Shown: positions 20,862 to 37,217 of the stretch, in pieces | How the letters are laid out: every line of letters begins with the position of its first letter | Position numbering within the stretch: position 1 is the stretch's first letter | Source of the DNA: Planctomycetota bacterium | GTDB taxonomy: Bacteria; Planctomycetota; Phycisphaerae; Phycisphaerales; UBA1924 | DNA: 64,000 bases | NCBI GenBank assembly: GCA_024280755.1 | Contig: JAJRPN010000030.1 | Coordinates: 84,034-148,033 of the forward strand | Direction: 5' to 3' | The notes under the pieces: generated by a model | Told to the model about the DNA's origin: nothing | Database searches by the model: none | The model's input: the letters and a program-made list of their open reading frames with translations, nothing else | Translations under genes and position numbers: made by a program

Positions 20862-20870
20862 GGTGATTCC

Positions 20871-21326: not shown

Positions 21327-21549
21327 CGGGCTTCCTTGATGTGCCTGTGCGGGCTGGCCTCGGCGCATGCAGACATTTCTCCCAACGAGAGGGTGCGTGA
21401 TGCGTTGGATCCGGGGCTGGCCGCAGGGCGTGGCCGGGGTGGTGAAGGCGGGGAATCCGCCTACCCCATATAGCCATCATCTCGGGGAGATAGCAAGCGG
21501 GTATCGCGTTATTCGAGAGACTATCAGCAGATACTCGCCATGGTGGGGG

Positions 21550-22671
21550 CTATTCGAGGCAGTCGTCGTGGGTCAGTTCAAATCCGGCGAGTATCTCGTC
21601 AACCAGCTCGCTCTCGTGTATTTGGCAGGCGGTGTTCCGGTAGGGATTCGCCTTGATGGCGTGCTCCTTGTCGAAGGTCTTGATCCACCGGATGCCGACA
21701 TAGACTTCGCGCTGGAAGTGCGGATTCTCGCTGTGTTCTAGCTGGAGGTCTACTAGTTTTTGATGCCCTGATTCGATGGCGAACTCATCGTATGGAGTGG
21801 GTTCAGTGGTCACGATGCCAACTCCCACATAGCCATGCCCTTTCCGGTAGGCGCAGACTGCTTGGCCGACATGGAGCCGATCGAGTTGCGAGATGCTGTT
21901 GCCGCCCGCCGAGATGTATCCGTAACGGCGAGAGTCTTCCCATGAGCGATGGTTTTTCTTGCCCCCGTGCTCGCCTACATTGACGAAGGCGAATCCGGTT
22001 GATGATCGCCCGCTTCTTCGGGCAGCTTTGCGTTCGCTGAGTTTCACTCGCTCGCGGACTTGGTAATCCTCCGCTGATTGAACCGGGATGACCTGCTCGA
22101 TCTGCACAAGGAGTTCTCCGTTGTGCTTGTGCGGGACGAGTTGGACACACCGGACATCGATCTGTTGCTCGCGGAGCCAAAGGGCTGAAGTCGTGATCTC
22201 GGTAGAGAAGTCCGCCGAGGCCAGGATGATTTTTGTTTCCGAGTCAAACTCTTCCTCATAAGGCTCAGGCCAACCAAGGAAATCCAGGATTTGCTGCTCT
22301 GCTTGTGCTGGATCTTGGTCGTTGTTCCGTAAGTACTGTTCGTGGGCTCGCACAGCTCTCTCGAAGGTCATGTTCGAGACCATCGCTGCATAACGGATCG
22401 CCTGAAGATCCATGTGGCCGCCCTTTTGGGTGCGTTTGAGTTCGATGACCACAAGGCATGCATCCTGATCGAGGCAAAGTAGGTCGATTCGTCGGTTGCT
22501 GTCTTCCCAATCGTTAAACTCTTCATCAATCACCATGCAGCCGGGCGCGATCGATTCGATCGAGTTTTTGAGCCAGCGCTGGAGGTCCTGTCGTTCACGG
22601 ACCTGTTCTTCTGAATAAGTAGTTTGCTCGATGAGTTCGAGTGAATCGCCTTTGATGCTGTACAGTCCCAT
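21550..22671 (-). CDS. NucS-like PD-(D/E)XK nuclease with C-terminal PUA/EVE-like module
   Basis: 373 aa probable nuclease. The N-terminal half has the core RIDLLCLD...CLVVIELKR (Asp then Glu-x-Lys), the active-site pattern of NucS/DUF91 and related restriction-like nucleases. About residues 225-290 form a different domain (SRRYGYISAGGN, then VGQAVCAYRKGHGYVGVG) that resembles the small beta-barrel PUA/EVE fold that reads modified bases in other nucleases; this second call is tentative. The start has GGAGG four bases upstream. It stands alone between the recombinase pair and the terminase-like genes. A modification-sensing restriction role is an inference; DNA repair is the alternative. Confidence 0.65.
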   Translation of the reverse strand: MGLYSIKGDSLELIEQTTYSEEQVRERQDLQRWLKNSIESIAPGCMVIDEEFNDWEDSNRRIDLLCLDQDACLVVIELKRTQKGGHMDLQAIRYAAMVSNMTFERAVRAHEQYLRNNDQDPAQAEQQILDFLGWPEPYEEEFDSETKIILASADFSTEITTSALWLREQQIDVRCVQLVPHKHNGELLVQIEQVIPVQSAEDYQVRERVKLSERKAARRSGRSSTGFAFVNVGEHGGKKNHRSWEDSRRYGYISAGGNSISQLDRLHVGQAVCAYRKGHGYVGVGIVTTEPTPYDEFAIESGHQKLVDLQLEHSENPHFQREVYVGIRWIKTFDKEHAIKANPYRNTACQIHESELVDEILAGFELTHDDCLE

Positions 22672-23027
22672 GGTGCCTCCGGTGTTGGTCGCGGAGGCAA
22701 GCTGTGGGGTCGGCGCATAAAGAGAGGCGCCAAACCAAGGTCATCCGCAGGGCCTCCGCCAAGAGGCACAAGAAACAACACATGGCCGGCGCCCCCTTGC
22801 GGGGGCGCGGCTCTGTGCTGTGTTTCTTGATCAAGAGCCAGAAGGCTCAGGTTGGCGGATTCCTGCGAATACAGCAAAGACGCTCGCGCGTCAACGGGAT
22901 GTCGGGCCTCATGGCCCAGTGAATCGTAATTCTCCTTGAGTATCGGCAAATCGGGGCAATCCCGACCAAATGCCGTCTCGCATGAAGTAATGGCTCGACG
23001 AGCCCCGGTGTCAAGCGGGATTCGCAA
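22672..23027. other. Non-coding stretch with a cluster of hairpins
   Basis: No convincing gene. It holds a long stem-loop at 22769-22829 (arms beginning CAAGAAACA and ending TGTTTCTTG, with GCGCCCCC/GGGGGCGC at the tip). Shorter perfect hairpins follow at 22879-22892 (GACGC-TCGC-GCGTC), 22904-22917 (GGGCC-TCAT-GGCCC) and 22992-23004 (GGCTC-GAC-GAGCC). None has a clean T-run. It may be a terminator array after the terminase-like gene, a structured RNA or a recognition site. Confidence 0.6.
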
Positions 23028-24224
23028 TCAGAACGCGGTTCCTGCATCTTCCGCAATCTGGGATATGGGCACCGTGCGGCCTTGTGGCGGCGAATCGTCC
23101 TCTATACGCAATACGACCTTTGGATTTACACCAGCAGAGTGATGGCTCCAATCCCTTCGATATCCGGCATGATCAAGGATGTACGGCTTTTCCGTCCCCC
23201 CGCTCCGTGGCTGAATCACGGCTCCGTTTGGTGAGCATGTACGCCATGATCCGCCAAGTGGGGCGCCTTGCCGATTGCGGTCGAACCACTCCCAGCCATG
23301 GAGTGCCCGAAGTGACATCATCTGCTCAAACGGCTCGTGTTTCGGCCATAGCACCTCAACACCATCGAGGAGTTGCTCGCGATGTGTATCGAAGTAGTGT
23401 TGGGCTTGAGTCCGATCCACTCGCAAGTGCTTGGCCCATGCGAACCAAAGATCAAAGTTGGCTGGATACGAATCCACTGCTTGATAGAACCGCTGCGTCC
23501 ACATTGAGGACTGATTTGGTTTCAACAAGCGATCGATCAGGCTGTTGGCGTGGGTGAGGGTGCCGAGGACGATGACCGAGGCACCCGTATATCTCGAGAG
23601 GATTTCGCGATGGATATGTCTTTTGAGTTTGGCACTCTTACCACCATTTGGATTTTCATTCTCCTCTGGATTTGCTTCAAATCCATCGAGGATGATGAGA
23701 TCAGGTGGCGACCCCTCGAAGGTGATCTCACCCAAGCTCGATGTTGGACCGAAGGTCGTGAGCCGGGCTACGCCACGGACATAGATATCTCGAGGCGGCG
23801 ATGCTCGTGATCCGCTAGATCCTGATCCGCGTTGAAGAGCGGCAAGATGCGGAAAGTCGGTACGGAGCATCTGATTGGTGCGGAGCTCATGATCTACCGA
23901 TCGCAAGAGTTCACCAGCTGCTGTGCGCGTGTGCGAACCAATTGCGATGCATCGGCAGTGTTTGTACGCCAATGCCCACAAGACCAGGGCGAATGTCGTC
24001 ATCGTGGTCTTGCCATAGCCATCCGGGGCAGCCATGACGAGACGGAGTGGGTTGTCAGATCCGATCTGGTTGTAGTCGGTGGCAATCTCCTCATGCATCC
24101 TGCTCCAGGGCAGAGTGGTACGGTGGCGAAGGTACATTTTCATAAACGGTAGAAGCGATCCGGCGCCGGTCTGGCGCCGGATCGCACTGAGAGTCGAGTT
24201 TGATCCCAGTTTGGTGTTGATCAT
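23028..24224 (-). CDS. Terminase large-subunit-like ATPase
   Basis: 398 aa P-loop protein resembling the ATPase half of phage terminase large subunits. Walker A is AAPDGYGKTT (residues about 65-75) and a Walker B-like LIILDGFEAN lies near residue 185; the usual acidic residue after Asp is Gly here. No clear C-terminal RNase H-like nuclease motif is visible and the protein is short for a complete terminase. Its ATG overlaps the preceding gene by 4 bp, so it is third in an operon with the ParB/methyltransferase and HTH genes. No portal, capsid or tail genes follow, so it is part of a small phage-derived element rather than a prophage. Confidence 0.6.
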   Translation of the reverse strand: MINTKLGSNSTLSAIRRQTGAGSLLPFMKMYLRHRTTLPWSRMHEEIATDYNQIGSDNPLRLVMAAPDGYGKTTMTTFALVLWALAYKHCRCIAIGSHTRTAAGELLRSVDHELRTNQMLRTDFPHLAALQRGSGSSGSRASPPRDIYVRGVARLTTFGPTSSLGEITFEGSPPDLIILDGFEANPEENENPNGGKSAKLKRHIHREILSRYTGASVIVLGTLTHANSLIDRLLKPNQSSMWTQRFYQAVDSYPANFDLWFAWAKHLRVDRTQAQHYFDTHREQLLDGVEVLWPKHEPFEQMMSLRALHGWEWFDRNRQGAPLGGSWRTCSPNGAVIQPRSGGTEKPYILDHAGYRRDWSHHSAGVNPKVVLRIEDDSPPQGRTVPISQIAEDAGTAF

Positions 24225-24799
24225 GCTGTATTCCCCTTGTCGATCGAGCCTCGGATTGATTCCAGCAGGGCGATCACTTGAATGCCCATCTCGGAGTCCT
24301 CTCCGAGTTCGGTACCAATCACGGTGACCGCATGGAGGAGTTCAGCAAGATTTGCAGACTCGTCCTGCACGGATCCCATTCCATTGGTTAATCCGATGCT
24401 ATGAAACCGTTTGATCAGATTGTTGAGTGATTCAGCGATCGCACGCTCCGCTGCGATCATATCAGCAGGGCTCGTCCTTGAATCCCGGCTCACACGCTGC
24501 AACCTTGTGTTCGAAGCTTGTGTCTGCAACTGAAGCTCTCCGAGCATCTCAGCGATAATTTGTTGAGAAGGGTGGATCGCATTCATTTTTCGAATCTCAG
24601 CTAAATCACGCCGGATCGTCCTTTCAGTCTTGTCAAAGAGTTCGGCAATCTCAGCATTGGCGAGGCCCTCGAGCCAGAGCCGTTGGACACAATCCTGACG
24701 GAAATCGATCGATACTTCCTTGCCGACAATCTGCCCGGCTTTGAGTTGACAAATGAGCTGGGTCGTTGTTCGAAGAGTACTCTTACGCGGCTTGCTCAT
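24221..24799 (-). CDS. Helix-turn-helix protein, terminase small-subunit-like
   Basis: 192 aa. A helix-turn-helix occurs at about residues 36-70 (QRLWLEGLANAEIAELF...TERTIRRDLAEIR). The remaining part is predicted helical with no known motif. By position between a methyltransferase and a terminase-like ATPase it may be the small subunit that recognises DNA, but the homology is weak. Overlaps both neighbours by 4 bp, so the three products are probably made in fixed ratio. Confidence 0.6.
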   Translation of the reverse strand: MSKPRKSTLRTTTQLICQLKAGQIVGKEVSIDFRQDCVQRLWLEGLANAEIAELFDKTERTIRRDLAEIRKMNAIHPSQQIIAEMLGELQLQTQASNTRLQRVSRDSRTSPADMIAAERAIAESLNNLIKRFHSIGLTNGMGSVQDESANLAELLHAVTVIGTELGEDSEMGIQVIALLESIRGSIDKGNTA

Positions 24800-26085
24800 G
24801 AATCGCCTCCTTTAGAAACTTGCTCTGGAGCCCATCGGGATAGAATCGATTGATCCACAGCTGAGCGGCCAACCGTAGCGATGTATCGTTGAACGATGAC
24901 ATCGCAGTATCGCGGATCGAGTTCGACCCCGAAGCATCGGCGTCCGAGCCGAGACGCCGCGATCAGTGTCGTCCCCGATCCAAGGAACGGGTCGAAAATG
25001 AGATTCCCACGCGAGGACGAGTTTCGAATAGCCCGCTCCGCAAGCGGCAACGCCTTCTGTGTCGGATGGCGATACAGATTGCCCCGATCACGCGTAATCG
25101 ACCAGAGTGTGGACTCATTCTTCGGACCATGCCACTGCTTACTCTTGCCATTCTTCCAACCGTACAAGCAGAACTCCGTCTGCTGGCTGTAGTGCCCGAA
25201 CCCTGGCGAGAACGACTCCTTTGCCCAAGTGATCACATTCCGAGGCTTCATCTTAAGCTCGGTGAGTAAATCCGACATGTGCCCGAAGTTGGCATGGCCG
25301 TTCCAGATGTAGTAGCTTGCACCAGACTTGAGATAATCCTTTACCTGTTCCAGCCATTGCTGTGTGAATACCCGGTACTGTTCGGGCGACATCTTATCAT
25401 TGATGATTGCCCGTGACGATTTCTTCGATTGCGGCGCAGTGGGACGATTGGCCCTGTTGTAATCCACATTGTAAGGCGGATCCGTATTGATCAGATGAGC
25501 ATGCTCATCGCCCATGAGCGCGACAAGCACTGATGGATCTGTACAGTCTCCGCACGCGATGCGGTGTAGACCGAGTTCGATGATCTCGCCATGGCGAGTG
25601 ATCGGAACATCGGTTTCAGAGTCGATCTGCTCCGCATCTTCCTCAACGGCAATCAGATCTTCTTGAGCATGCTCTTCAAGCAGCCGATCGATCTCATTTG
25701 AGCGAAATCCGGTAAGGGTTGAATCGAAGTCTTGATCAGCCGTGAGCTCGGTAAGGAGGTCTGAGAGCAAGGAGTTGTCCCACTCGCCATGGATTTTGTT
25801 GAGAGCGAGATTGAGCTTCTTTTCATCTTCCAGATCGAGTTCTACTACGGTGACAGGGATCTTCTTGAATCCCTGGCTAAGCAGAATCTTGAGCCGTTGG
25901 TGTCCACCGACGAGGTTTCCGGTCTTGATGTTCCAAACCATGGGCTCCACGCAGCCAAATTTTTCCATACTGGCGAGCAGTTGTTGAGCCGTCGTTGACT
26001 CAGGGTGGAGGTTCTTCCGTGGGTTGTATGCTGCCGGGTTGATACGGCTGACAGAGATTATTTGTGTTTTGAGAATGTCAATCAT
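24796..26085 (-). CDS. ParB/Srx-domain DNA methyltransferase
   Basis: 429 aa fusion. The N-terminus is a ParB-like nuclease/Srx domain (YNPRKN, then NLVGGHQRLKILLSQG). The C-terminal half is an N4/N6 DNA methyltransferase: catalytic motif NTDPPYNVDYNRAN, and FDPFLGSGTTLIAASRLGRRCFGVELD for S-adenosylmethionine binding at the end, i.e. the beta-type order. The start at 26085 is chosen for AAGGAG seven bases upstream, rather than the more distal in-frame start at 26127. This fusion is frequent in phages and elements, where it modifies the element's own DNA and sits near terminase genes. First gene of a three-gene overlapping operon; no matching restriction enzyme was recognised. Confidence 0.85.
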   Translation of the reverse strand: MIDILKTQIISVSRINPAAYNPRKNLHPESTTAQQLLASMEKFGCVEPMVWNIKTGNLVGGHQRLKILLSQGFKKIPVTVVELDLEDEKKLNLALNKIHGEWDNSLLSDLLTELTADQDFDSTLTGFRSNEIDRLLEEHAQEDLIAVEEDAEQIDSETDVPITRHGEIIELGLHRIACGDCTDPSVLVALMGDEHAHLINTDPPYNVDYNRANRPTAPQSKKSSRAIINDKMSPEQYRVFTQQWLEQVKDYLKSGASYYIWNGHANFGHMSDLLTELKMKPRNVITWAKESFSPGFGHYSQQTEFCLYGWKNGKSKQWHGPKNESTLWSITRDRGNLYRHPTQKALPLAERAIRNSSSRGNLIFDPFLGSGTTLIAASRLGRRCFGVELDPRYCDVIVQRYIATVGRSAVDQSILSRWAPEQVSKGGDS

Positions 26086-26196
26086 GAGGTGCTCCTTACT
26101 CGGAGCACAATTGCTCCGCGGAGACACTCTTCGCCCAATTATCTAAGTGGTAAGGTGATTTCGCCCATTCGGCATTTAACCAGCATATGGATGCCG

Positions 26197-26772
26197 TTAG
26201 TCGCCAGAATTGTGCTGGTTGCGTTCAAGTAGGGCTGTCCATGCGTCAGCTGCGGCTTTCCCTTTTTGCTTCCCATGTTGGCGGGCTGCTGCAATAAGCT
26301 TGCGGATCTCTGCATTTGTGAACCGTCGATGCGAGTCACCCTGCTCGACCACAACACCGGATTTTCGACAAATCTTTTGCCATGTATCCTTGCCAATTTC
26401 CGCTGCTTTTATAAGCTCGCCGACCGTATAGCCATCGAGACGGACTTTGCCATCTTCTAGGTGATCCAGTAGTGCTGAGAGATTCAGGGCGGCACGATCG
26501 CGACGCGAGAAATACTGCATTAATCCAGTCTCATTTGCAATATGCGACTGAAGGACATTGAAGTCAGGGCCAGTGGTTCTACAAACACCGAGATGGGCTT
26601 CGAGGAGAGCATCCATTTCTGATGTGATTCTGTATTTGATTTGATCAGCTACTTCAAAGCCCTGCAAAGCTGCCAAGGCAGATGCATGTAGCAAGATTGC
26701 CTCGGCCTTCTCTATACTCGAGTCGGATTTGGCGATCCCACAAAATTGAATTAGGGGCTTCTTGCGTGACAT
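26197..26772 (-). CDS. Hypothetical protein, helical
   Basis: About 191 aa, predicted mainly helical; no family recognised. The middle (YTVGELIKAAEIGKDTWQKICRKSGV) and the following RRFTNAEIRKLIAAARQHG could form helix-turn-helix-like units, so DNA binding is possible. An ATG at 26772 is preferred over a TTG at 26781. It lies just upstream of the ParB/methyltransferase operon in the same orientation, with a 111-bp gap. A short inverted repeat CAACT-N6-AGTTG lies immediately upstream of the start and may be an operator. Confidence 0.6.
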   Translation of the reverse strand: MSRKKPLIQFCGIAKSDSSIEKAEAILLHASALAALQGFEVADQIKYRITSEMDALLEAHLGVCRTTGPDFNVLQSHIANETGLMQYFSRRDRAALNLSALLDHLEDGKVRLDGYTVGELIKAAEIGKDTWQKICRKSGVVVEQGDSHRRFTNAEIRKLIAAARQHGKQKGKAAADAWTALLERNQHNSGD

Positions 26773-26937
26773 ATACACCAACTATACCAAGTTGTCCCGT
26801 AGCTAGCCTGCTCCATTCCAATTTACACTGGTGGGACATGGGGTGTTTGAATCCTGATGCTCAACAAGCAGGGGTAAGGGTTGGGATTAATCCAATAGTT
26901 CAATGTAGTTGATGGGCATTGGGAGTACTGTTCATGC

Positions 26938-27123
26938 CTACCAACGTATTCGCCTAGATTGACGTCTGTGTTTGCGATGCCTACGAGAAGGGGGAGTAGG
27001 TAGTTGAAGGGCAACGAGTTCCAACGCCAGCCTCGCTACACCAGCTGCTGCAACAAGCCCAACAATATGCCAAAGTTCTATTGGTAGTTCGATTGGGGGC
27101 ATCTGTTGGGGCTCATGCTGCAT
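26938..27123 (-). CDS. Possible small single-pass membrane protein
   Basis: About 61 aa frame overlapping the end of the DUF6527 gene by 11 bp. It has one hydrophobic helix (LWHIVGLVAAAGVARLALEL) and a very basic C-terminus (RRHRKHRRQSRRIRW), fitting an inner-membrane protein with a cytoplasmic tail. Coupling by overlap supports it as the last gene of the ubiquitin-like operon; lack of homology and short length argue caution. The next 160 bp to 26772 hold no gene I can support. Confidence 0.35.
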   Translation of the reverse strand: MQHEPQQMPPIELPIELWHIVGLVAAAGVARLALELVALQLPTPPSRRHRKHRRQSRRIRW

Positions 27124-27484
27124 GTGATGCGTCTCCTGACGGGTGATCATTACACCAGATTACCTCACTATTTCGAAAGAAAAAATGACTTTTGCACCCC
27201 GACTTGCGCCATACCGATGGATGGAGCGAAACTGTATAATTGGGCATCTCAGAAACTGACCACTTGGGGCGCCGGCCAGCTAGAAGATTGAGTTGAATTG
27301 TTTCGTTGCAACCACACGGACAGGTCATTGCTGCGACCCAAAGATGTTTACCTTCGCCGACAAGATAGACAGTTCGCTCTCGTAGCCTATCCGGCAGTTC
27401 CTCCACATGGACAGTGTCATACGGTTTAGGCTGGTTGTAAAAGAGCGATCTGAACCATGACCAGATATAATTGGGCCACTTCAT
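27113..27484 (-). CDS. DUF6527-like protein of ubiquitin-like operon
   Basis: 123 aa. Contains a metal-binding-like CPCGCNETIQLNL segment and, near the C-terminus, PSVWRKSGCKSHFFFRNSEV, both typical of the DUF6527 group that accompanies bacterial E1/E2/Ub-like operons. The start at 27484 overlaps the TGA of the JAB-E1 gene as ATGA and has GGGAAG seven bases upstream; another ATG two codons earlier is possible. The role is unknown; the Cys-rich site suggests zinc binding, perhaps in target recognition or processing. Confidence 0.7.
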   Translation of the reverse strand: MKWPNYIWSWFRSLFYNQPKPYDTVHVEELPDRLRERTVYLVGEGKHLWVAAMTCPCGCNETIQLNLLAGRRPKWSVSEMPNYTVSLHPSVWRKSGCKSHFFFRNSEVIWCNDHPSGDASHAA

Positions 27485-28887
27485 GAACATACTTCCCGCT
27501 CAGTGAGTTCTGGGCTGTTAAGCAACGGACGGATATCCCCGTGCCCTACATACTTAGCCAATAATGCCCGATCGTATCGGTCTTCTCGGAAGTGATACCG
27601 TTCCATCTGTGATAGACTCTCGCTGTATACCGCAAACTCAATGTTGTCATCAAGACGATATGGGTGTAGCCTAGCAAGAAACTCGTTCACAGCACGCGCT
27701 GCAAAGAGCGTGTTCACTGTTACAACTGCAGGGCGTATTTCGTCTACACCCTGGATGTAGTTGCTGCGTAATTGCTCATGATATTCCTCTGGGTCACGAC
27801 GCCGCAGGCCTTCAGCGCGTACACGCTCCATATCGTAAACGCCTCGGTCGAGTAGTGTTGATTTTCCGGGTTGCAAGTAGTGTACTGAGCCACAAACTTG
27901 GTCGATGCGACCACCGTGGCCAGCCTCAAGTTTTACTCCCGTATCAAAGTATGGTATGTTGTAAAAAGTGGCTATCTTGGTCAGCACATGGCGTCCCTCG
28001 GCGCTATCGACGCAACCGAAGAGTACATCGCAGCCAGCAAGGGCGCGGACAGCGATAGTTGATTCTGCGATGTTTTCAGCAATAGGCACGACGACTGTCC
28101 CCATCCCCATGCTATTGACTGCTCGTGCCACTATGTCAACTTTTAAACTTGACTTCTCAGCATCATCGCGTGTCGAGTTAGGGATGCGATTGAGGTTTTC
28201 GAAACTTACCACATCAGGGTCGACTGCGATAAGGTGTCCAATCCCGAGTCGTCCAAGCATTTCGCACAACGGTCCGCCGGTTCCTGAACATCCAAGTACG
28301 CCAACACTTAGTCGGCGCATGAGCCGTGTGGTAGATTCACCAAAGAGGCGGGCATGTCGGTCTTGCTCTTTTTCCACCGCTCCTTGGTCATGATCTGTGT
28401 CAAAAAATATAATGTTATCTCCAGCAATCGCGATTCTTGCAATCGGACTGAATGACCCGTCCGTGTGTACCGCTCGGGCAATCATTCGTCCCGATGGTAA
28501 CATGATAACACTCACATGTGGCTCCTCGCCGTCGGTCCACCCATGGATTGAAGCGAACAGGTCAGCGTCTGATTTATCATCGACCAGTGAAAATTGATCA
28601 AGCCCGTTTGGATGACTATGGAATTTAACGATTGCCTCACCACGCTCAGTAGCTTCATCAAGTAGATCGTTGAGTTGTCCGGTTGGCCAAGTAACTCGAT
28701 CCGTCTCGCGGATACTGCAATCGTCATAAGGCACATGTACGATCCGTCGCAAGCATAGAATATGATGCTTGGTAGCATGGTGACGCCCACATATCCCAAC
28801 TGAGACTGCTTCATAGCCGTCGCCCGGGAACAGGTGGTCTCGGAGCATGCGATGTTGCTCACCTGTAATACGCAGTATAATTCCCAT
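27481..28887 (-). CDS. JAB/MPN protease - ThiF/E1 fusion of ubiquitin-like pathway
   Basis: 468 aa bifunctional protein. Residues 1-140 are a JAMM metalloprotease: Glu26, then FHSHPNG with His90 and His92, Ser100 and Asp103 (HxH-x7-S-x2-D). Residues about 190-440 are an E1/ThiF adenylyltransferase with VGVLGCSGTGG nucleotide loop (199-205), VDPDVVSFENLNR, and the later FDTGVKLEAGHGG. The protease would trim a Ub-like protein tail and also deconjugate it; the E1 would activate its C-terminal Gly with ATP. Where many ThiF/JAB relatives show PG-x-x-C-L-x-C, this protein has PGKSTLLD; Cys332 is a candidate catalytic thiol. It lies 3 bp after the E2 gene and overlaps DUF6527. Confidence 0.88.
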   Translation of the reverse strand: MGIILRITGEQHRMLRDHLFPGDGYEAVSVGICGRHHATKHHILCLRRIVHVPYDDCSIRETDRVTWPTGQLNDLLDEATERGEAIVKFHSHPNGLDQFSLVDDKSDADLFASIHGWTDGEEPHVSVIMLPSGRMIARAVHTDGSFSPIARIAIAGDNIIFFDTDHDQGAVEKEQDRHARLFGESTTRLMRRLSVGVLGCSGTGGPLCEMLGRLGIGHLIAVDPDVVSFENLNRIPNSTRDDAEKSSLKVDIVARAVNSMGMGTVVVPIAENIAESTIAVRALAGCDVLFGCVDSAEGRHVLTKIATFYNIPYFDTGVKLEAGHGGRIDQVCGSVHYLQPGKSTLLDRGVYDMERVRAEGLRRRDPEEYHEQLRSNYIQGVDEIRPAVVTVNTLFAARAVNEFLARLHPYRLDDNIEFAVYSESLSQMERYHFREDRYDRALLAKYVGHGDIRPLLNSPELTEREVCS

Positions 28888-28890
28888 GTT

Positions 28891-29301
28891 TTAGCTCCCC
28901 TTCATGAGTTCGCGGGTAAACCAGTTGTCAGCCAGTGCCATGTGTGTTTCGAGGCTATCAATACCCACACGCCATGGGTTCTGCGGTGTGCGGTGGCGCG
29001 ACCACCTTTGCCATTGTTGACCCCGAATAGGCTGAGAGCTCAGCGCATGGATTGCTACACCGTCGGTACGTTGCAGTGTCGGATAGGCATAAATCATATC
29101 GAGTTGTGCTTCGGGATAACCGGGTTGTATATCAACGGCAAGTGATACGACAGAATGGTTGTATCCATCGCTAATTGGCCAATCATGCACGATTACCCAC
29201 CGTTTGTTGCCTTCGATTACTGTTTCCCATTGGTGCCCAATAGTGTCGAGAAACTCCACATCGAGGGCGGGTAGATCGAACTCCCGTTTGATCAATCGCA
29301 T
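28891..29301 (-). CDS. Prokaryotic E2-like protein (Prok-E2 family E type)
   Basis: 136 aa recognised as the E2/UBC-like family that accompanies multiubiquitin operons: DVEFLDTIGHQWETV, WVIVHDWPISDGYN, PGYPEAQLDMIY and WQRWSRHRTPQNPWRVGIDSL. It would carry or position the Ub-like protein for transfer. Unusually for an E2 it contains no cysteine at all, so thioester transfer in the classical way is impossible; loss of the catalytic Cys may be a trait of this family. It overlaps the Ub-like gene by 10 bp and the JAB-E1 gene starts 3 bp after it: tight translational linkage. Confidence 0.85.
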   Translation of the reverse strand: MRLIKREFDLPALDVEFLDTIGHQWETVIEGNKRWVIVHDWPISDGYNHSVVSLAVDIQPGYPEAQLDMIYAYPTLQRTDGVAIHALSSQPIRGQQWQRWSRHRTPQNPWRVGIDSLETHMALADNWFTRELMKGS

Positions 29302-29630
29302 GGAACACCACCCTCCGTCGTATCATTTGGGAGCGTCATGAACCGTTCGATACCAGGCGATGTGAAGTCGACCTTCTGATCTGGTTCAATTGGTTCTGCT
29401 TGACCGCCTCGGCGTTTTTGAGAAAGCAGGTACTTGTCGGGCGTTTTGTCCGCTAGTGCGAGGATCTCAGTACCTGTCATGCATGGTTCACAGACTACGA
29501 ATTTTTCACGATCGATCCTTATTCGATAGTGCCGGTGCTGTGGCACATGACGTTCTGCTTTCGCATATTCTTCCACATCGATAATCTCTGCATTCGTGAT
29601 GTCGACATTTGCTTTACTAATCTGACTCAT
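29292..29630 (-). CDS. Ubiquitin-like protein (multiubiquitin domain)
   Basis: 112 aa with one ubiquitin-like domain of the multiubiquitin group: YRIRIDREKFVVCEP, TGTEILALADKTPDKYLLSQ, RRGGQAEPIEPDQKVDF. The C-terminus reads TTEGGVPCD, a Gly-Gly followed by four residues, as in precursors that a JAMM protease must trim. The start at 29630 is chosen for AAGGAA six bases upstream; the longer frame to 29837 has no coding look. First gene of the operon Ub-like, E2-like, JAB-E1, DUF6527, and divergent from an XRE/ImmA pair. Multiubiquitin proteins often have two or three repeats; this has one. Confidence 0.83.
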   Translation of the reverse strand: MSQISKANVDITNAEIIDVEEYAKAERHVPQHRHYRIRIDREKFVVCEPCMTGTEILALADKTPDKYLLSQKRRGGQAEPIEPDQKVDFTSPGIERFMTLPNDTTEGGVPCD

Positions 29631-29813
29631 GATGAATTCCTTTTCGATCAAGCCGAGCATGGTCCGAAAACAATGGGATTCATACGCAGAATCACCCTTA
29701 TAATCAGTATTGTGAGCAAGGCAAACAAAGGCGGGAAGGTTGCCTCGCAGACAACTGTAGCAGTTATGGGCGAGAAGGCCACCTTGAGCAACACTCGCAT
29801 GGCGCTTTTTTCC

Positions 29814-29860
29814 CAAACATGTTTGCGACATTGACATTTCGGTTGTGGTCGTGTATCCTT
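29814..29860 (+). promoter_or_regulatory. Sigma-70 promoter with upstream palindrome (XRE/ImmA operon)
   Basis: TTGACA at 29832-29837 and TATCCT at 29855-29860, separated by 17 bp, give a near-consensus promoter for the XRE gene. A perfect 12-bp palindrome, CAAACATGTTTG, lies at 29814-29825 just upstream of the -35, between the two divergent operons; it is a candidate operator for the XRE protein. Confidence 0.7.
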
Positions 29861-29880
29861 TAGGCCCTACCTAATCGGAG

Positions 29881-30216
29881 ATGAAGATTTTGGCTGACCA
29901 TCGTGGAAAAGTTGATTCGATTTACCCAGAAGTGGGGCGCCGAATTCGTGAAGCCCGAAAGGCAAAATCCCATCAGCTTACTCAGCAAGATCTAGGTGAT
30001 CAGATTGAGCTTTCGAGAGAATCAGTAGCCAATATTGAAAGTGGGCGACAGCAAGTCTTGTTGCACCATGTGCTACGGATTGCAACAGTGCTGGGTATCC
30101 CGCTCGCCGATCTCATACCCCACAATCCAATCAAAAAACTCAGCTTGGATGATGCTCTGGAAAGTGTATCAGATGATGAAAGATCATTCGTTGCACGCGC
30201 ACTAAAGGACAATTGA
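29881..30216 (+). CDS. XRE-family transcriptional regulator
   Basis: 111 aa. Helix-turn-helix of Cro/CI type at about residues 20-75: VGRRIREARKAK, LTQQDLGDQIELSRESVANIESGR, VLRIATVLGIPLADLIP. It is paired with an ImmA/IrrE metallopeptidase gene 1 bp downstream, as in switches where the peptidase cuts the repressor. It is divergent from the ubiquitin-like operon and probably controls one or both. The ATG at 29881 directly follows GGAG; a TTG at 29890 has better ribosome-site spacing and may be the true start. Confidence 0.88.
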   Translation: MKILADHRGKVDSIYPEVGRRIREARKAKSHQLTQQDLGDQIELSRESVANIESGRQQVLLHHVLRIATVLGIPLADLIPHNPIKKLSLDDALESVSDDERSFVARALKDN

Positions 30217-30217
30217 C

Positions 30218-30757
30218 ATGGCCATACGCAGAAAACTGATTAAGCACAAAGTTGCCGAGCTCATCGATAGCTGTGCTATCTCAAAGCCACCGGTTGATGT
30301 ATCCAAAGTCGCACGGTCACTTGGTCTTGAGATTGTGATGGCGCCGGACGAGGTGGGGCTTTCTGGTTTTCTGATATCCGATTCAGATTCCGGCCGCCAA
30401 ATCATCGGTGTGAACCAGTCTCATCACATCAATCGCCGCCGGTTTACGATTGCACATGAAATTGGTCACCATGTGATGGGTCATCTGGAAGGTAAGATTC
30501 ATGTTGACTCAAATACAACACTTCGGGTTGCAGCTCGATCCTCAGTGTCAAGTAAGGGTACTGACCCTCACGAAGTCGAAGCTAACTCTTTTGCCGCAGA
30601 ATTACTGATGCCTCAATCGTTGGTGGAGAATGCAATGGCCATTATTGAGCGTGATAGCAATCTTGGTGACGATCAAATTATTGCGGCAATTGCGAAACAG
30701 TTCAAGGTAAGTGAATCTGCAATGAGTTTTCGCTTAGCCAACTTGGGCTTAGGTTGA
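30218..30757 (+). CDS. ImmA/IrrE-family metallopeptidase
   Basis: 179 aa zinc metallopeptidase. The motif FTIAHEIGHHVMGH supplies HExxH, and VEANSFAAELLMP supplies the downstream acidic residue with the typical family sequence. Such enzymes cleave their XRE partner upon a signal such as DNA damage or phage infection, relieving repression. The gene begins 1 bp after the XRE stop, so the pair forms a unit. A nucleosidase-like gene follows 127 bp later in the same direction. Confidence 0.9.
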   Translation: MAIRRKLIKHKVAELIDSCAISKPPVDVSKVARSLGLEIVMAPDEVGLSGFLISDSDSGRQIIGVNQSHHINRRRFTIAHEIGHHVMGHLEGKIHVDSNTTLRVAARSSVSSKGTDPHEVEANSFAAELLMPQSLVENAMAIIERDSNLGDDQIIAAIAKQFKVSESAMSFRLANLGLG

Positions 30758-30884: not shown

Positions 30885-31937
30885 ATGATTGAATTTTGCT
30901 ACGAACCATCCAAGCAATCAGATGCGGTAGTGGTGCGAAGCGATGACCATACGATGGGGGAGTCGTTAGCTCAATATCTAAAAATGAAAATTCACCCTTT
31001 ACTTCTTCGTAGCAATCCAGACCGAGTCGATGTTGTCCCAATGCATAATCGGACCGAAGGTGTTTCTGAATTGGAGAAAGAGGGCAAGCTGTTCAATTTC
31101 AAACGCCCGACAGCAGTTATGAGCTCAACCAATCAGATAGAGCTTCGCTGTTTTCCAGGATTCGATTATGTTTTTCACTATGCCGGTATTGTTGCTTCTC
31201 ATTATCAGAGTCTCGGCCATCCACTTCGTGTGACATATACCACGCCTGAGAAGAGCTTGTGTCGCCGAGCTCTTGAAGCATCAGGGATCTTTAAAATTCC
31301 ACTTGCACGAGTGGTCATCATGGGCTATGTTGAAGGCCTTGATTCTCGATCTCCTGATGACAAATGGAGAGGCGAGGGGGAGTTTAAATGGAAGCGGTTT
31401 GATAGCACTATTCCAGATTCTATTCTCGTTGGATGTGAACATACCTACTGGGGCGATATCGCGGGAACAGTGGTCGAGCTTCTTGCCGAACGAGGGGTGC
31501 AGCTTGTGATTTATGCGGGCAAGCTGGGGTCATTGAACTCTACGGATGTTCCAAATACATGCTTAGCTAGCTCAGCGGAAAGTGTTTTACCCGATGGGCA
31601 TGCTGTTGTATGGGAGAACATTTTTGAGCACACGAAGTTTGATGATGATCTGTGTCGTTATGGAATGCATGTGACAGTACCGTCGGTACTTCAGGAGACC
31701 AAGCAATGGCTTGAATCACTTGATTCGAGGATGCGGTTCGTTGATCCAGAGATTGGACATATGGCTGCAGCAGCCAAACTCGCAGGAATCGGGTTTTCTA
31801 ACTTGCACATCATCTCTGACAATCTAGTAGCCCAGCACGAGCATGATCTTTCCAATGAGCGTGATTCGGAAGTTGTCGAAAAGCGATCTATGCTAACAAC
31901 TCGAATGACTGACGCTATTTGGGCTAGTATTCGATAG
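30885..31937 (+). CDS. Nucleoside phosphorylase/nucleosidase-like protein, possible effector
   Basis: 350 aa. Not recognised as a named family, but the second half has the feel of the purine nucleoside phosphorylase/MTA-SAH nucleosidase fold: ILVGCEHTYWGDIAGTVVEL, LVIYAGKLGSL (glycine-rich beta strand), and DPEIGHMAAAAKLAGIGF, NLHIISDNL, close to the D/E-x-E...A...I-x-SD pattern of that fold. If active it would split a nucleoside or nucleotide. Located behind XRE and ImmA and next to the ubiquitin-like operon, it could be a toxic effector or a target. The fold assignment is tentative. Confidence 0.5.
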   Translation: MIEFCYEPSKQSDAVVVRSDDHTMGESLAQYLKMKIHPLLLRSNPDRVDVVPMHNRTEGVSELEKEGKLFNFKRPTAVMSSTNQIELRCFPGFDYVFHYAGIVASHYQSLGHPLRVTYTTPEKSLCRRALEASGIFKIPLARVVIMGYVEGLDSRSPDDKWRGEGEFKWKRFDSTIPDSILVGCEHTYWGDIAGTVVELLAERGVQLVIYAGKLGSLNSTDVPNTCLASSAESVLPDGHAVVWENIFEHTKFDDDLCRYGMHVTVPSVLQETKQWLESLDSRMRFVDPEIGHMAAAAKLAGIGFSNLHIISDNLVAQHEHDLSNERDSEVVEKRSMLTTRMTDAIWASIR

Positions 31938-32053: not shown

Positions 32054-32269
32054 ATGACAAGCCGCAACAGGGACTACAACAGCGCCGGTTCAGTGCCCGA
32101 TGTGATGACTATCGAGCAACTCTCTTCGTATCTTCAGCTCTCACGGTCCACGCTCTACAAGCTCGCTCAGGAAGGAAAGCTACCTGGGCAGAAGGTCGGG
32201 AAGCACTGGAGGTTCAGCAAGCAAGTTATTGATGAATGGCTGCGTGGGGGCGAAAGGGGTGAGCCGTGA
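32054..32269 (+). CDS. Excisionase-type helix-turn-helix protein
   Basis: 71 aa small DNA-binding protein of the HTH_17/MerR-like excisionase group: VMTIEQLSSYLQLSRSTLYKLAQ, KVGKHWRFSKQVIDEWL. An ATG at 32054 follows a TTG codon; an internal ATG at 32105 would still leave the whole DNA-binding domain. Its stop overlaps the GTG start of the SNF2 gene (GTGA), so it is the first gene of the HTH-SNF2-Mod-Res operon and is probably its regulator. Confidence 0.8.
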   Translation: MTSRNRDYNSAGSVPDVMTIEQLSSYLQLSRSTLYKLAQEGKLPGQKVGKHWRFSKQVIDEWLRGGERGEP

Positions 32270-35151
32270 CGGTCTCCTCACATCAGGCGTGCTATTTCGC
32301 GCATGAATTAACTCGGCTTGGGTCCGTTGGTGAGCTTGATCGCCTCAGCACAACCCTGTTCGACTCCAAAGTTGATCTGAACCCGCATCAGATCGAAGCG
32401 GCTCTATTTGCGATCTCCAACCCACTTCAGAAAGGCGTCATCCTCGCGGACGAAGTGGGTCTCGGCAAGACGATTGAAGCAGGGCTGGTGCTGTGCCAGA
32501 AGTGGGCCGAGCGCAAGCGCCGTTTGATCATCGTCTCGCCTGCCCACATCCGCAAGCAGTGGCAAACCGAGCTATCCGAGAAATTCAATCTGCCCAGCAT
32601 CGTGTTGGATCGAAAGATTTTCAACCAGCTGAAGCGAGATGGTGCGATAAACCCATTCGACTGCGGTCAAATTGTCGTGGTTTCCTACGGCTTTGCAGCC
32701 CGGATGCAGGATGAACTTCGGGCTACCCCTTTCGACCTTGCTGTCTTCGACGAAGCACACAAACTCCGCAATGCCTATCAGCCCAGTCGCAAGCAGGGGC
32801 AAAAGCTTCGGTGGGCATTTGAGCTCCGCAGGAAACTGCTGTTAACGGCAACCCCGTTGCAAAACAACCTTCTTGAATTATACGGGTTGGGCTGGTTTAT
32901 CGACGAGCACATCTTTGGGGACAAAAGCGCATTCCAAAGTCGCTACTGCCGATCCGGCGGTGATCTAGAAGGTCTGCGCCAGCGATTGGGTCAGTTTTGT
33001 AAGCGCACGCTACGAAAAGACTGTGAATATGTTCGCTACACAAAGCGCCGGGCCATTACCCATCACTTTACACAGAACCAAGAAGAAAAACAGCTCTACA
33101 TTGATGTGCTTGCTTTTATGCAGCAGGACGAGAGCTACGCATTCCCAGCCAAGCAACGTCAGCTTATTGAGATTGTCGTCTTCAAAGCTCTGGCATCATC
33201 ACCTATAGCCCTTGCGGGAACACTCCGCACAATGCTTGCCCGCCTTGAAGCCTTACGCGATGGATTGGCTGAGGCGAATGCCGAACAGCCGTATTGGCGC
33301 TCTCTCGCCAACGACGAAGACTTCGACCTTGAGGATTTGCTCGATGAATGGGATGACGAGGACGATTCTGGCCGCGATGATGGGCAGATCGACGGCAAAA
33401 TCCTCGCAAGGGAAGTTAATCTCCTTCAGTCGCTTATTGAGCGAGCTGAGAGTATCACCTGTGATAGCAAATCGACGGCGCTGCTCACTGCTCTCGAACG
33501 AGGCTTCGCCGAGTTGGTGAAGATCGGAGCGCCTCGCAAAGCCCTGATCTTCACCGAGAGTCGAAAGACGCAGGCGTTTCTCGCCGAGTTTCTCGAAAGC
33601 AATGGCTACCGCGGGAAAGTCATCCAATACAACGGCAGCAACTCGCACCCACAAGCAAAAGTGGCCTATGAACAGTTCAAGCAGCAATACCAAGACACCG
33701 ATCGATTTACTGGAAGCAAGGCTGTAGACATTCGGAGCGCACTGATCGAAGCGTTTCGAGAAAGCGGCGAGATACTGCTCGCCACCGAAGCCGCTGCCGA
33801 AGGTGTCAATCTGCAGTTTTGCTCGTTCGTGATCAACCACGACATGCCGTGGAATCCCCAGCGTATCGAGCAACGAATCGGTCGCTGCCACCGTTACGGC
33901 CAGAGTTTCGATGTGGTTGTGCTAAACTTTCTCAATCAAGATAACCACGCAGACCGGCGCGTTCATACACTTCTCGACGAGAAGTTTAATCTCTTTGATG
34001 GCGTCTTCGGAGCCAGCGATCACGTTCTGGGCGCAATCGAGAGCGGCGTTGACTTCGAGCGACGTATCATCGACATCCTCAAGACCTGCCGTGACGCCGA
34101 TGCGATCGAAGCAGCTTTCAACAAGCTGCAGGAGGATCTCGATGATGTCATCCAGGACAAGATGGGCACGGCCAAACAGCAGCTGATTGACCACTTCGAC
34201 GCCGATGTGCACGCGCGACTCCAGTCACAGCTTGAGGATGCCGAGCTGGCGCTCAATCGCATCCAAGAGAAGTTCTGGCGTCTTACGCAATGGGGCCTAG
34301 CCGATCAGGCCACCTTTGACCACGAGCGATTTAGCCTCAATCTGCCCAACCCACCTGCGAAGGAAATTCCGCCGGGCCAGCACCGGCTGATTTCTGCGGC
34401 CAAGCAGGATGCTCATGGCCGCATCGCTCCCGGCCGAGACCACTTGCTTCGACTCTCCAGCCCGCTGGGTCATTGGCTCCTTGAGACGGCAAAATCCCAA
34501 CCTCTGCCGATACATGAGCTTCAGTTCGATCTCTCCTCCCACCCCAAGAAAATCAGCATGCTCGAACCCTACAAGGGACAAAGTGGCTGGCTTCGGGTTG
34601 AGAGGCTTGAAGTCCACACCGACACCGAAGAGGACTTCCTGCTCGTCAGCGGCGTCACCGACGACCTCAAGAGCATGGATATTGAGTGCCTCGAACGCCT
34701 ATGGGATCTCTTGTCCACAGACCGGGGCCCGCGAGCGCTCGCAGAAGATATTGACGATCGCTTATCACAAGAACTTGAGCAGCATCGCCAGGCCACTTTG
34801 CTCAAGCACTCGGAGAGCGTGGGCAAGAGACTGCAGCAACTGCAGGATCAGCTCGAACAGTGGGCCGAGGACAAGATTGAGCCCGAGAAGCAGAAACTCG
34901 AAGAGCTGCGCAATCAGAAGCGTCAGGCCCGCCGACAAGCTCGGCAGGCCAATACCGTCGATGACCAGCTCGCAAGCCAAACCCAAGCGAGACAGATTGA
35001 GAAGCAGATTCGTGCGCAAGAGCAAGCTGTCGCCCGCTTGCAAGACGAGTTAGATGACAAGCTCGACGAGATGTTTACTCAACTCAAGACCAGTAGCCAA
35101 CAGAAGGCGACGCCGCAGACTATTATGACCGTGAAATGGAGCGTTGTGTGA
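32266..35151 (+). CDS. SNF2-family helicase/ATPase of a restriction-type operon
   Basis: 961 aa superfamily 2 ATPase that would translocate on DNA. Motif I is ADEVGLGKTIEAGL (Lys68), motif II FDEAHKLRN, motif III TATPLQN, and motif VI WNPQRIEQRIGRCHRYGQ. The C-terminal 120 residues are a long charged coiled coil (KQKLEELRNQKRQARRQARQ). GTG start, overlapping the HTH gene; its end overlaps the methyltransferase gene by 16 bp. DISARM systems also carry a SNF2 helicase (DrmD) but none of their other parts is present here. It probably works with the type III-like Mod and Res. Confidence 0.9.
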   Translation: MTVSSHQACYFAHELTRLGSVGELDRLSTTLFDSKVDLNPHQIEAALFAISNPLQKGVILADEVGLGKTIEAGLVLCQKWAERKRRLIIVSPAHIRKQWQTELSEKFNLPSIVLDRKIFNQLKRDGAINPFDCGQIVVVSYGFAARMQDELRATPFDLAVFDEAHKLRNAYQPSRKQGQKLRWAFELRRKLLLTATPLQNNLLELYGLGWFIDEHIFGDKSAFQSRYCRSGGDLEGLRQRLGQFCKRTLRKDCEYVRYTKRRAITHHFTQNQEEKQLYIDVLAFMQQDESYAFPAKQRQLIEIVVFKALASSPIALAGTLRTMLARLEALRDGLAEANAEQPYWRSLANDEDFDLEDLLDEWDDEDDSGRDDGQIDGKILAREVNLLQSLIERAESITCDSKSTALLTALERGFAELVKIGAPRKALIFTESRKTQAFLAEFLESNGYRGKVIQYNGSNSHPQAKVAYEQFKQQYQDTDRFTGSKAVDIRSALIEAFRESGEILLATEAAAEGVNLQFCSFVINHDMPWNPQRIEQRIGRCHRYGQSFDVVVLNFLNQDNHADRRVHTLLDEKFNLFDGVFGASDHVLGAIESGVDFERRIIDILKTCRDADAIEAAFNKLQEDLDDVIQDKMGTAKQQLIDHFDADVHARLQSQLEDAELALNRIQEKFWRLTQWGLADQATFDHERFSLNLPNPPAKEIPPGQHRLISAAKQDAHGRIAPGRDHLLRLSSPLGHWLLETAKSQPLPIHELQFDLSSHPKKISMLEPYKGQSGWLRVERLEVHTDTEEDFLLVSGVTDDLKSMDIECLERLWDLLSTDRGPRALAEDIDDRLSQELEQHRQATLLKHSESVGKRLQQLQDQLEQWAEDKIEPEKQKLEELRNQKRQARRQARQANTVDDQLASQTQARQIEKQIRAQEQAVARLQDELDDKLDEMFTQLKTSSQQKATPQTIMTVKWSVV

Positions 35152-37214
35152 CTAAGCCTGATACCAAGAAATCCGAACCCAGTAACCTCGATCGGCTCGA
35201 TGGCCAGTCTATGGACATCACCGCCCAGCGCCTCGCCGCGATCAAGGCTTTGCTGCCGGAAGCCTTCGACCTCGACGGTAACCTCGTTCGCGACAAACTG
35301 CTCGAAGCGCTCAAACCAGCGAGCTACGAAGCCAGCGATGACATCCCAGCGTTCGGGCTCGCTTGGCCGGGCAAGCAATTGGCATTCGCCGCAGCCGGGG
35401 TGCCGACCACCGCGACGCTCAGGCCGTCCCCAGAGCAGTCCGTCGACTTTGACACCACACAGAACCTGCTGATCGAGGGCGACAACCTCGAAGTCCTCAA
35501 GACCCTGCGACGCAGCTACCAGGGCAAGGTCAAGATGATCTACATCGACCCGCCGTACAATACCGGCAAAGACTTCGTCTACCCGGACAACTACGGCGAA
35601 GGTTTGGACACCTACCTACAGCGAACCGAGCAGAAAGACGACGACGGTTTCTGGAAGAGCACCAACAGCGAGACCAGCGGTCGCAAGCACGCCAACTGGT
35701 TGAGCATGATGGCACCGCGGCTGACGCTTGCTCGGAACCTACTCCGTGACGACGGTGTGATTTTTGTGTCAATCGGAGATGACGAAGAAGCAAATTTGCG
35801 ACTGCTCTGCGACGAAGTGTTTGGTCCTGAAAACTTCTGCAACACCATAGCTGTCGAGATGTCTACGACATCTGGGCCGAAAACGGTGAATGCGCAACAG
35901 GGCACCATTGTCAAGAACATTGAATTTGTTCATATATACCGGAAATCATCGGCATTTAACGAAAGCGTGCGCACTCCACTACTTGATGGGATCGATGCAT
36001 ATGACACGCATTACACAAATTGGATGAACGACGACGGTACCCTAGACACGCTCTCTGACGTCTTAATGTGTGACGTAGCCATCAGGTCCGATGTCGAGAA
36101 AAATAATCTGGCAGGCAGCAGAGGGTTCAGTATCAAGTCTATGGACAAGTTGTTGTCAGTATCTGAGGCAGCGAGGGAGTTCGTTACAGACAACCTGAAG
36201 AGGATTGCTCGTGTAGACCGGCCGCCGGTGTCTGCGCAAGGGGCGTCGCCAGATGTCGGAAAATGGGAGCGTTTTTCGGCAGACCATAGGGACTATCTAC
36301 TTACAACACTCGAAAGCGGAACTCTACAATCGCTCATTCCGTTGCATGCAAATTACCGAATGTCTGACGATTACAAGCCTCGATTTGGGCGAACTGTCAT
36401 TCGCGGCGACCTTTGGAAGGGGTTCCACCAGGACATGGGCAATGTAGCCAAAGAAGGCGACATGGTCTTCGCCAACGGAAAAAAGCCCGTCCGTCTAATC
36501 AAGCAGTTCAGCAAGTGGGCAACCTTGGGCGATGGCGACATTCTCCTCGATTTCTTCGCAGGGTCCGGCACCAGCGGGCATGCCACCATGGCACAGAACG
36601 CTGAGGATGGTGGCCAACGTCGCTACATCTGCGTGCAATTGCCGGAGCCATTGGATGAACCGGTGACGCTCGACGATGGCATCGTCTGCGAGACGATATT
36701 CGATCTCACCCGAGAACGGCTCAAGCGGGCGGGCAGCAAGATCAAGGAAGAGGCTGGGCTGAACGCCGAGAAGCTTGACACCGGGCTGCGTGTCTTTAAG
36801 CTTGATTCAAGCAACTTCACTGCGTGGAACAGCGACCCGACAACCAGCGAGACGGACTTGCTCGAACGCCTTGAACAGCTCAACGACCAAACCGTAGCCG
36901 GGCGTTCTGAAATGGACATCCTCTGGGAGATACTGCTCAAGATGGGGCTGCCACTGGATTTGCAACTCGAGCGATTTGAGCTGGAGGGCGCATCGTTCAT
37001 CGGCGTTGCAGACCGAACCAAGGTCCTCAGCACCGAAACAGCAATCCCGACAGCGGCCCTTGAAGCCCTTCTGGATCAGGACATCCCGCCATCTGAGCTC
37101 GTCGTGCTAGACGGCGCCTTCGAAAACGACAATGCCCGCGCCAACATCGCCACGCTCTACAAAGAGCGTAAGGACGACGACGGGAAGCCGGTATGTAACC
37201 TGAAGGTAGTGTAA
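35136..37214 (+). CDS. Type III restriction-modification methyltransferase (Mod)
   Basis: 692 aa adenine/N4 methyltransferase. The catalytic motif IYIDPPYNTGKDF (Asp138) precedes the S-adenosylmethionine motif DFFAGSGTSGHA (about residue 472), the beta-class order of type III Mod proteins. The segment between (about residues 205-430) is the target-recognition domain. That segment, 35.75-36.44 kb, is visibly more AT-rich than the flanking coding DNA, suggesting exchange of specificity by recombination. It overlaps the SNF2 gene and is 3 bp before Res. It should protect host DNA and set the recognition sequence. Confidence 0.92.
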   Translation: MERCVTKPDTKKSEPSNLDRLDGQSMDITAQRLAAIKALLPEAFDLDGNLVRDKLLEALKPASYEASDDIPAFGLAWPGKQLAFAAAGVPTTATLRPSPEQSVDFDTTQNLLIEGDNLEVLKTLRRSYQGKVKMIYIDPPYNTGKDFVYPDNYGEGLDTYLQRTEQKDDDGFWKSTNSETSGRKHANWLSMMAPRLTLARNLLRDDGVIFVSIGDDEEANLRLLCDEVFGPENFCNTIAVEMSTTSGPKTVNAQQGTIVKNIEFVHIYRKSSAFNESVRTPLLDGIDAYDTHYTNWMNDDGTLDTLSDVLMCDVAIRSDVEKNNLAGSRGFSIKSMDKLLSVSEAAREFVTDNLKRIARVDRPPVSAQGASPDVGKWERFSADHRDYLLTTLESGTLQSLIPLHANYRMSDDYKPRFGRTVIRGDLWKGFHQDMGNVAKEGDMVFANGKKPVRLIKQFSKWATLGDGDILLDFFAGSGTSGHATMAQNAEDGGQRRYICVQLPEPLDEPVTLDDGIVCETIFDLTRERLKRAGSKIKEEAGLNAEKLDTGLRVFKLDSSNFTAWNSDPTTSETDLLERLEQLNDQTVAGRSEMDILWEILLKMGLPLDLQLERFELEGASFIGVADRTKVLSTETAIPTAALEALLDQDIPPSELVVLDGAFENDNARANIATLYKERKDDDGKPVCNLKVV

Positions 37215-37217
37215 GGC

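Follow-up and report, generated by a model that had tools for sequence, protein, structure and literature searches.

Gene content and identity of the operon

The 64,000-nucleotide stretch of DNA analysed here (the window; contig JAJRPN010000030.1, positions 84,034 to 148,033, of the Planctomycetota assembly GCA_024280755.1) contains four tightly linked minus-strand genes that encode, in the order of transcription, a ubiquitin-like protein (Ubl), an E2-like protein, a fusion of a JAB protease with an E1 enzyme (JAB-E1), and a DUF6527 protein (Table 1). The Ubl and E2-like genes overlap by 10 bp, as do JAB-E1 and DUF6527, and a gap of 3 bp separates the E2-like gene from JAB-E1; place and spacing agree with those given in an earlier, sequence-only reading of this DNA. 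All four proteins score above the curated Pfam cut-offs (Multi_ubiq, 2.2e-15 and a single copy, for Ubl; Prok-E2_E, 6e-34; ThiF, 8.4e-26, and Prok-JAB, 9.8e-6, for JAB-E1; DUF6527, 2.7e-21), Prok-JAB only barely (25.9 versus 25 bits), and the motif and family matches of the four genes are far beyond chance. Given their identity and order, the conservation of their motifs, the agreement of an E2 model with BubB, their spread over phyla and plasmids, and the family matches of a flanking gene pair, we consider with good confidence that they form a bacterial ubiquitination-like (Bub) operon, likely conjugating the Ubl to target proteins. The predicted roles of JAB in it are to shorten the modifier to Gly107 and, at a later stage, to detach it from its targets. 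The sequence-only reading was likewise right to see a complete operon for ubiquitin-like conjugation, which has restriction and helicase genes as neighbours; it had overlooked the flanking CapH/CapP-like pair, the fact that the E2 is cysteine-free, and the Ubl tail. The genome (a 3.02-Mb assembly in 41 contigs, 94% complete) holds a single Prok-E2_E match.

With this locus, the complete set of four Bub genes is seen in a mobile region of a planctomycete, next to a CapH/CapP-type switch. Its main interest lies in the E2, which, being cysteine-free, would need another chemistry. Three questions can be put to a direct test: which residue would serve as carrier of the modifier if the E2 has no cysteine, what DUF6527 does, and whether JAB matures the modifier. 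We compared 16 Bub loci in detail (the window, L017-L021, L032, L034-L039, L046, L049, and L051), excluding L033 (a stretch of the Pla86 plasmid contained letter for letter in L021), L050 and L052 (incomplete E1, with the Ubl and E2 genes lying outside the sequence compared), and L022-L031, L047, and L048 (diverged or of other types).

Table 1. Features of the Bub operon and of its surroundings in the window.
Feature	Position	Strand	Remarks
Ubl gene (BubA-like)	29292..29630	-	112 aa, one multiubiquitin-type domain; ATG at 29630, AAGGA upstream
E2-like gene (BubB-like)	28891..29301	-	136 aa, cysteine-free
JAB-E1 fusion (BubCD-like)	27481..28887	-	468 aa
DUF6527 gene	27113..27490	-	125 aa; small, rich in beta structure; contains CPCGC and C-x2-H
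Gly107 codon, predicted mature Ubl C-terminus	29310..29312	-	Gly at the aligned site in 16/16 Bub loci
GVPCD tail, five residues after Gly107, predicted JAB-trimmed	29295..29309	-	Last codons overlap the E2 start
Q98-R-W100-S101-R102-H103, predicted active-site segment of the E2-like protein	28993..29010	-	Q, W, S, R, and H each in 98/98 sequences
JAMM metalloprotease motif H90-S-H92-P...S100-x-x-D103	28579..28620	-	H90, H92, S100, and D103 in 134/134 sequences with the column
E1 adenylation loop G199-C-S-G-T-G204	28276..28293	-	G199, S201, G202, and G204 in 135/135
Shared region of 250 bp that separates the Bub operon from the CapH/CapP-like pair	29631..29880	.	Contains a near-palindrome
Helix-turn-helix repressor gene, CapH-like, divergent from the operon	29881..30216	+	PADLOC capH 7.7e-12; Pfam HTH_3 7.2e-10
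ImmA/IrrE-type metallopeptidase gene, CapP-like	30218..30757	+	PADLOC capP 1.1e-29 (top); Pfam Peptidase_M78 3.2e-19
350-aa gene after the CapP-like gene	30885-31937	+	PNP_UDP_1 E 0.017, weak, below cut-off
DrmD-like SNF2 helicase, type III methyltransferase, and type III restriction enzyme, in a row	32266-40274	+	PADLOC 1.3e-180, 6e-150, and 3e-222, respectively

Relationship with known systems

The closest system with solved structures is the Bub operon of Citrobacter (BubCD, 9ea4, 9ea5, 9ea8, 9eae, and 9eav; BubB, 9eae_C), which has the same full-length JAB-E1 fusion, the same E2 fold, and the same W-S-R-H motif; residues 5-463 of the 468 in our JAB-E1 align with positions 9-457 of the 458 in BubCD (9ea4, E 4.4e-80). 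The JAB-E1 variant, described as poorly characterised in the sequence-only reading, thus belongs to the structurally known Bub family. The two operons differ in two respects. Citrobacter BubB is numbered 234-361 in 9eae, which we take to mean that it belongs to a Ubl-E2 fusion, whereas the window has a separate gene for its single-domain Ubl. BubB also contains cysteines, at positions that are not conserved, and the E2 of the window contains none. A mechanistic paper on Bub has reportedly been published by Ye et al. in 2026 (Nat Struct Mol Biol). In Bil systems (BilABCD), Ubl, E1, E2, and JAB protease likewise share an operon, and the E2 has a catalytic cysteine. Membership of Bil is ruled out for our operon because its E2 lacks cysteine and its JAB is fused to E1; its Ubl matches BilA (8u38) weakly (E 0.006).

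The same gene set (Ubl, E2/RWD-like protein without catalytic cysteine, JAB-E1 fusion, and a small Cys/His protein) was described as the Type 6e operon (Iyer et al. 2006, PMC1779556), row 6e of whose Table 1 states that ‘Amac has a solo Ub-like domain’. Forms with a single Ubl domain, supposed in the sequence-only reading to be little known, have hence been on record since 2006, and a stand-alone single-domain Ubl gene occurs in 10 of the 16 Bub loci. Two plasmids, those of Neotabrizicola shimadae (NZ_CP069372, L034) and Methylocystis rosea (NZ_CP044329, L035), have the four genes in this same arrangement, together with a divergent regulator of the HTH/CapP type, which is one fused protein best classified as RmrA in the former and a larger CapP-like protein in the latter. 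In both, unlike in the window, the Ubl gene ends at the mature Gly, without a tail. The E1 part also scores with ThiF and MoeB profiles, as it would in a sulfur-carrier or cofactor system devoid of protein conjugation, but these scores are far under the curated cut-offs (best 55 versus 275 bits) and the full-length match with BubCD and the presence of E2-like and JAB partners make such a system extremely improbable.

The modifier and its predicted maturation

The Ubl resembles multiubiquitin chains of known structure (9d59, E 1.9e-7; 9cd2, E 4.8e-7), and its stand-alone relatives at the same position in their operons have 101-119 aa. A longer open reading frame (ORF) beginning at 29837 is the alternative for this gene, and we preferred the start at 29630 because the relatives support it. 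Among the 16 loci, the glycine at the end of the Ubl domain is preceded by Glu (E-G) in 12 and belongs to an N-N-G sequence in the other four, and what follows it takes three forms: the gene stops directly at Gly in five loci (L017, L034, L035, L049, and L051), a tail of 3 to 6 residues extends past it in five (the window, with GVPCD, and L018, L019, L020, and L021), and the protein continues into a fused E2 domain in six (L032, L036-L039, and L046). Of 14 additional long E2 homologs, 13 also have E-G or D-G ahead of the E2 domain within the part of the sequence inspected (the exception being P0259), and the solved 247-aa chain 9d59 ends at the Gly equivalent to Gly107. The simplest reading of these sequences is that JAB trims or splits the Ubl precursor at the conserved Gly. 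Conjugation would accordingly begin, in the window, with the removal of the GVPCD tail after Gly107 by JAB, a step for which the relatives without tail, with short tails, and with fused E2 are natural controls.

The JAB-E1 fusion

We aligned 135 JAB-E1 sequences (the window, 119 of the 120 matches listed out of 1048, and 15 loci). The view that the E1 and JAB motifs are intact stands as far as the JAMM motif and the adenylation site are concerned, both kept (Table 1), but the E1 lacks Cys-x-x-Cys, which is absent from the window protein and all 13 Bub-type proteins aligned and present in nine of nine other JAB-E1s aligned. The intact ThiF-type site and the match with BubCD suggest that, in a second step, the E1 part adenylates Gly107. 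The JAB domain also has two near-invariant cysteines, C33 (134/134) and C57 (132/134).

A nucleophile that could hold the modifier after adenylation is less evident in the E1. In one of its loops, Citrobacter and the window share P-G-x-S-T-L, and most other sequences have S-S or S-T there; position 344 is Ser or Thr in only 129 of 135 sequences, and the loop has therefore no universal nucleophile. In the planctomycete Bub E1s L018, L020, and L021 the loop reads A-G or D-G, and we rejected the loop serine as universal nucleophile and as our main reading because these three proteins lack it. Another candidate is C292, found in 135/135 E1s, which together with the DUF6527 cysteines C57, C59, C61, and C99 (63/63) might sustain a canonical thioester relay through an unusual cysteine, either in the E1 or in an E3-like DUF6527. 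Nevertheless, C292 is better read as structural, because the C-x-D segment to which it belongs is also found in eight of nine non-Bub JAB-E1s aligned, and the DUF6527 cysteines, together with H102, resemble zinc ligands; we regard such a relay as improbable.

A cysteine-free E2-like protein

An AlphaFold2 model of the E2-like protein matches the fold of solved BubB. Structure prediction, a check proposed in the sequence-only reading, therefore backs the E2 fold, the Ubl, E1, and JAMM folds being supported by Pfam and PDB sequence matches. We aligned the E2 of the window with 97 of its 115 homologs, having set aside 14 long and 4 short ones: of these 98 sequences, 44 have no cysteine at all, as in the window, and cysteine occurs in at most 13 sequences at any column. 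W-S-R-H, by contrast, is found in all 115 homologs, and Ser-x-His occupies the same column in eight of nine Prok-E2_E loci that are diverged or of other types (the exception is L026; L025 and L031, unaligned there, and L028, without match, were not counted). In the model, a strand (95-100) is followed by S101, W110, and the last helix (117-133). Classical UbcH5B has its catalytic cysteine at C85, followed by W93 and a helix from about 98. The spacing around S101 in the model appears close to that around the catalytic Cys of classical E2s, a comparison that sets the model against UbcH5B numbering. Placement by sequence on a Cys-bearing E2 gave no usable hhalign alignment, with a single Prok-E2_B found in 199 genomes.

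Because the E1 loop provides no universal nucleophile, we favour, tentatively and at somewhat less than even chance, Ser101 of the E2 as the predicted carrier of the modifier. In this third and least certain step, which we rate no higher, the modifier would pass to Ser101 of Q-x-W-S-R-H as an ester, instead of a thioester, and then to the amine of the target. Alternatively, the E2-like protein might be a dead scaffold that, with DUF6527, only docks the target, whose amine would attack the Ubl adenylate held by the E1 directly or via E1 Ser343 or Ser/Thr344. Such a scaffold would hardly need an invariant Ser-Arg-His (98/98), nor is it easily reconciled with the retention of Ser-x-His in distant E2_E proteins, and three of the 16 Bub loci (L018, L020, and L021) have neither Ser nor Thr at either of the two E1 positions; we see it as conceivable, with perhaps a third of our credence. 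An extension of the Ser101 carrier reading is that Bub and its wider Prok-E2_E relatives run a thiol-free ubiquitin transfer, with Ser-Arg-His replacing the catalytic Cys, an ester carrier, and DUF6527 as a new zinc-based E3 delivering the modifier. This broader proposal is speculative and, in our judgement, rather unlikely; if it is true, the present operon, which encodes a single-domain Ubl and the E2 by separate genes, would offer a simple natural setting for its proof.

The DUF6527 protein

C57, C59, C61, C99, and H102 are present in all 63 DUF6527 sequences compared, window included. The predicted structure is a small beta-rich domain of moderate confidence (pLDDT 80, pTM 0.70), and it had no significant PDB match by sequence or by fold. 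Four of these residues form the pattern C-x(3)-C-x(37)-C-x(2)-H (C57, C61, C99, and H102), which fits the spacing of the Type 6e small protein, C-x(3)-C-x(35-38)-H-x(2)-C (PMC1779556), except that the last pair is C99-x2-H102. A zinc-binding, target-choosing role for such small proteins was first suggested by Iyer et al. 2006 (PMC1779556), and the four invariant Cys and the His suggest that, in a fourth step, DUF6527 would act as a zinc-binding partner that chooses or positions the target. In L039 (Rhizobium sp. T1473), DUF6527 is followed, in the same orientation, by a gene annotated as Clp protease proteolytic subunit (6786-7394, plus strand), which may connect Bub tagging with proteolysis.

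A putative CapH/CapP-like control region

The two genes divergent from the operon have capH and capP as top PADLOC matches, the regulatory pair of CBASS and other immune operons. The assignment is less clear-cut for the CapH-like gene, for which Control_protein is the second-best PADLOC profile (3e-10) and other HTH profiles score nearly as well. The match of the CapP-like protein to the CapP profile is confined to positions 4-153 of 242, and since it ends at position 153 the trigger of this protein may differ from that of CapP. A near-palindrome at 29811-29828 (two 9-base arms with one mismatch) is an operator candidate. In a fifth step, the pair would repress the operon until DNA damage, upon which the peptidase would cut the repressor.

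Eight further Bub loci also have CapP matches (L017, L019, L020, L021/L033, L034, L035, L036, and L051), hence in at least 9 of 16, among candidate genes chosen by BLAST or annotation; of the seven remaining loci, one protein of L038 was scanned, without match. The L020 match lies downstream of the operon, others are up to 1.4 kb or two genes off, and in L034 RmrA outscores CapP. CapW or CapH+CapP adjoin 219 of 544 Bub operons, which they place under DNA-damage control, according to a recent paper (EMBO J 2026, PMC13373217).

Distribution

The distribution of Bub is patchy and mobile. A Prok-E2_E profile search of 392 genomes of the phylum matched 16, that of the window among them; five of the others have the complete set of four Bub genes in an identical order, the gene-order conservation that the sequence-only reading had asked for, and a sixth relative, L022, has diverged, with no Ubl found by BLAST. 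Within the order, JAB-E1 matched at E 1e-30 or better in 8 of 400 genomes, own included, and at that threshold in none of the 20 congeners listed (56-94% complete) nor in any unlisted genome of those 400. On plasmids, 92 of 72,556 PLSDB records matched (E 1e-30), 88 of them with 80% or more of the query covered and 53 typed as conjugative, and the eight that we inspected come from Pseudomonadota, Planctomycetota, Bacteroidota, and Cyanobacteriota. None of 50,697 phage records matched (tblastn, E 1e-20). A pattern scan of viral contigs also found none, as it did in genome contigs where other searches found many; such scans are insensitive because they missed relatives seen by genome search and plasmid tblastn.

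Neighbourhood and possible biological role

The helicase and type III restriction-modification genes downstream of the CapP-like gene (Table 1) fit a defence island. PADLOC at E 0.01 gave no match for the Ubl, E2, or DUF6527 proteins, and JAB-E1 matches its E1-E2 models (best 1.5e-10). An anti-phage function is nonetheless not the sole candidate: the operon could be a general DNA-damage or stress-response module, or an aid to the maintenance of mobile elements, a proposal that we hold to be a serious one, slightly below an even chance. It is consistent with the CapH/CapP-like control, with the presence of matches in plasmids (many conjugative) and their absence from phage records, and with the statement, in the EMBO J 2026 article (PMC13373217), that phage protection by Bub is not demonstrated and that Bub may mediate global stress responses. 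Against it stand the DrmD-like and type III restriction-modification neighbours and, in one relative (the Methylocystis plasmid, L035, 1398-10020), a location among Abi genes (annotated AbiV, AbiJ-type, and AbiE).

The 350-aa gene at 30885-31937 had no PADLOC or NCBIfam match at E 0.01. A possible fifth gene of the operon, the minus-strand ORF 26938-27150 (70 aa when read from its first ATG, with a single hydrophobic segment), which overlaps the DUF6527 stop, was left out; BLAST found no relative in the loci searched, and in 13 other loci (including the diverged L022) a small hydrophobic ORF follows DUF6527 in L019 alone, where it is 55 aa long and dissimilar. Farther along, the minus-strand region 19125-26781 comprises a large serine-recombinase-like gene, as read from sequence, and further genes including a ParB-N + DNA methylase fusion (Pfam), and is possibly one end of a mobile element.

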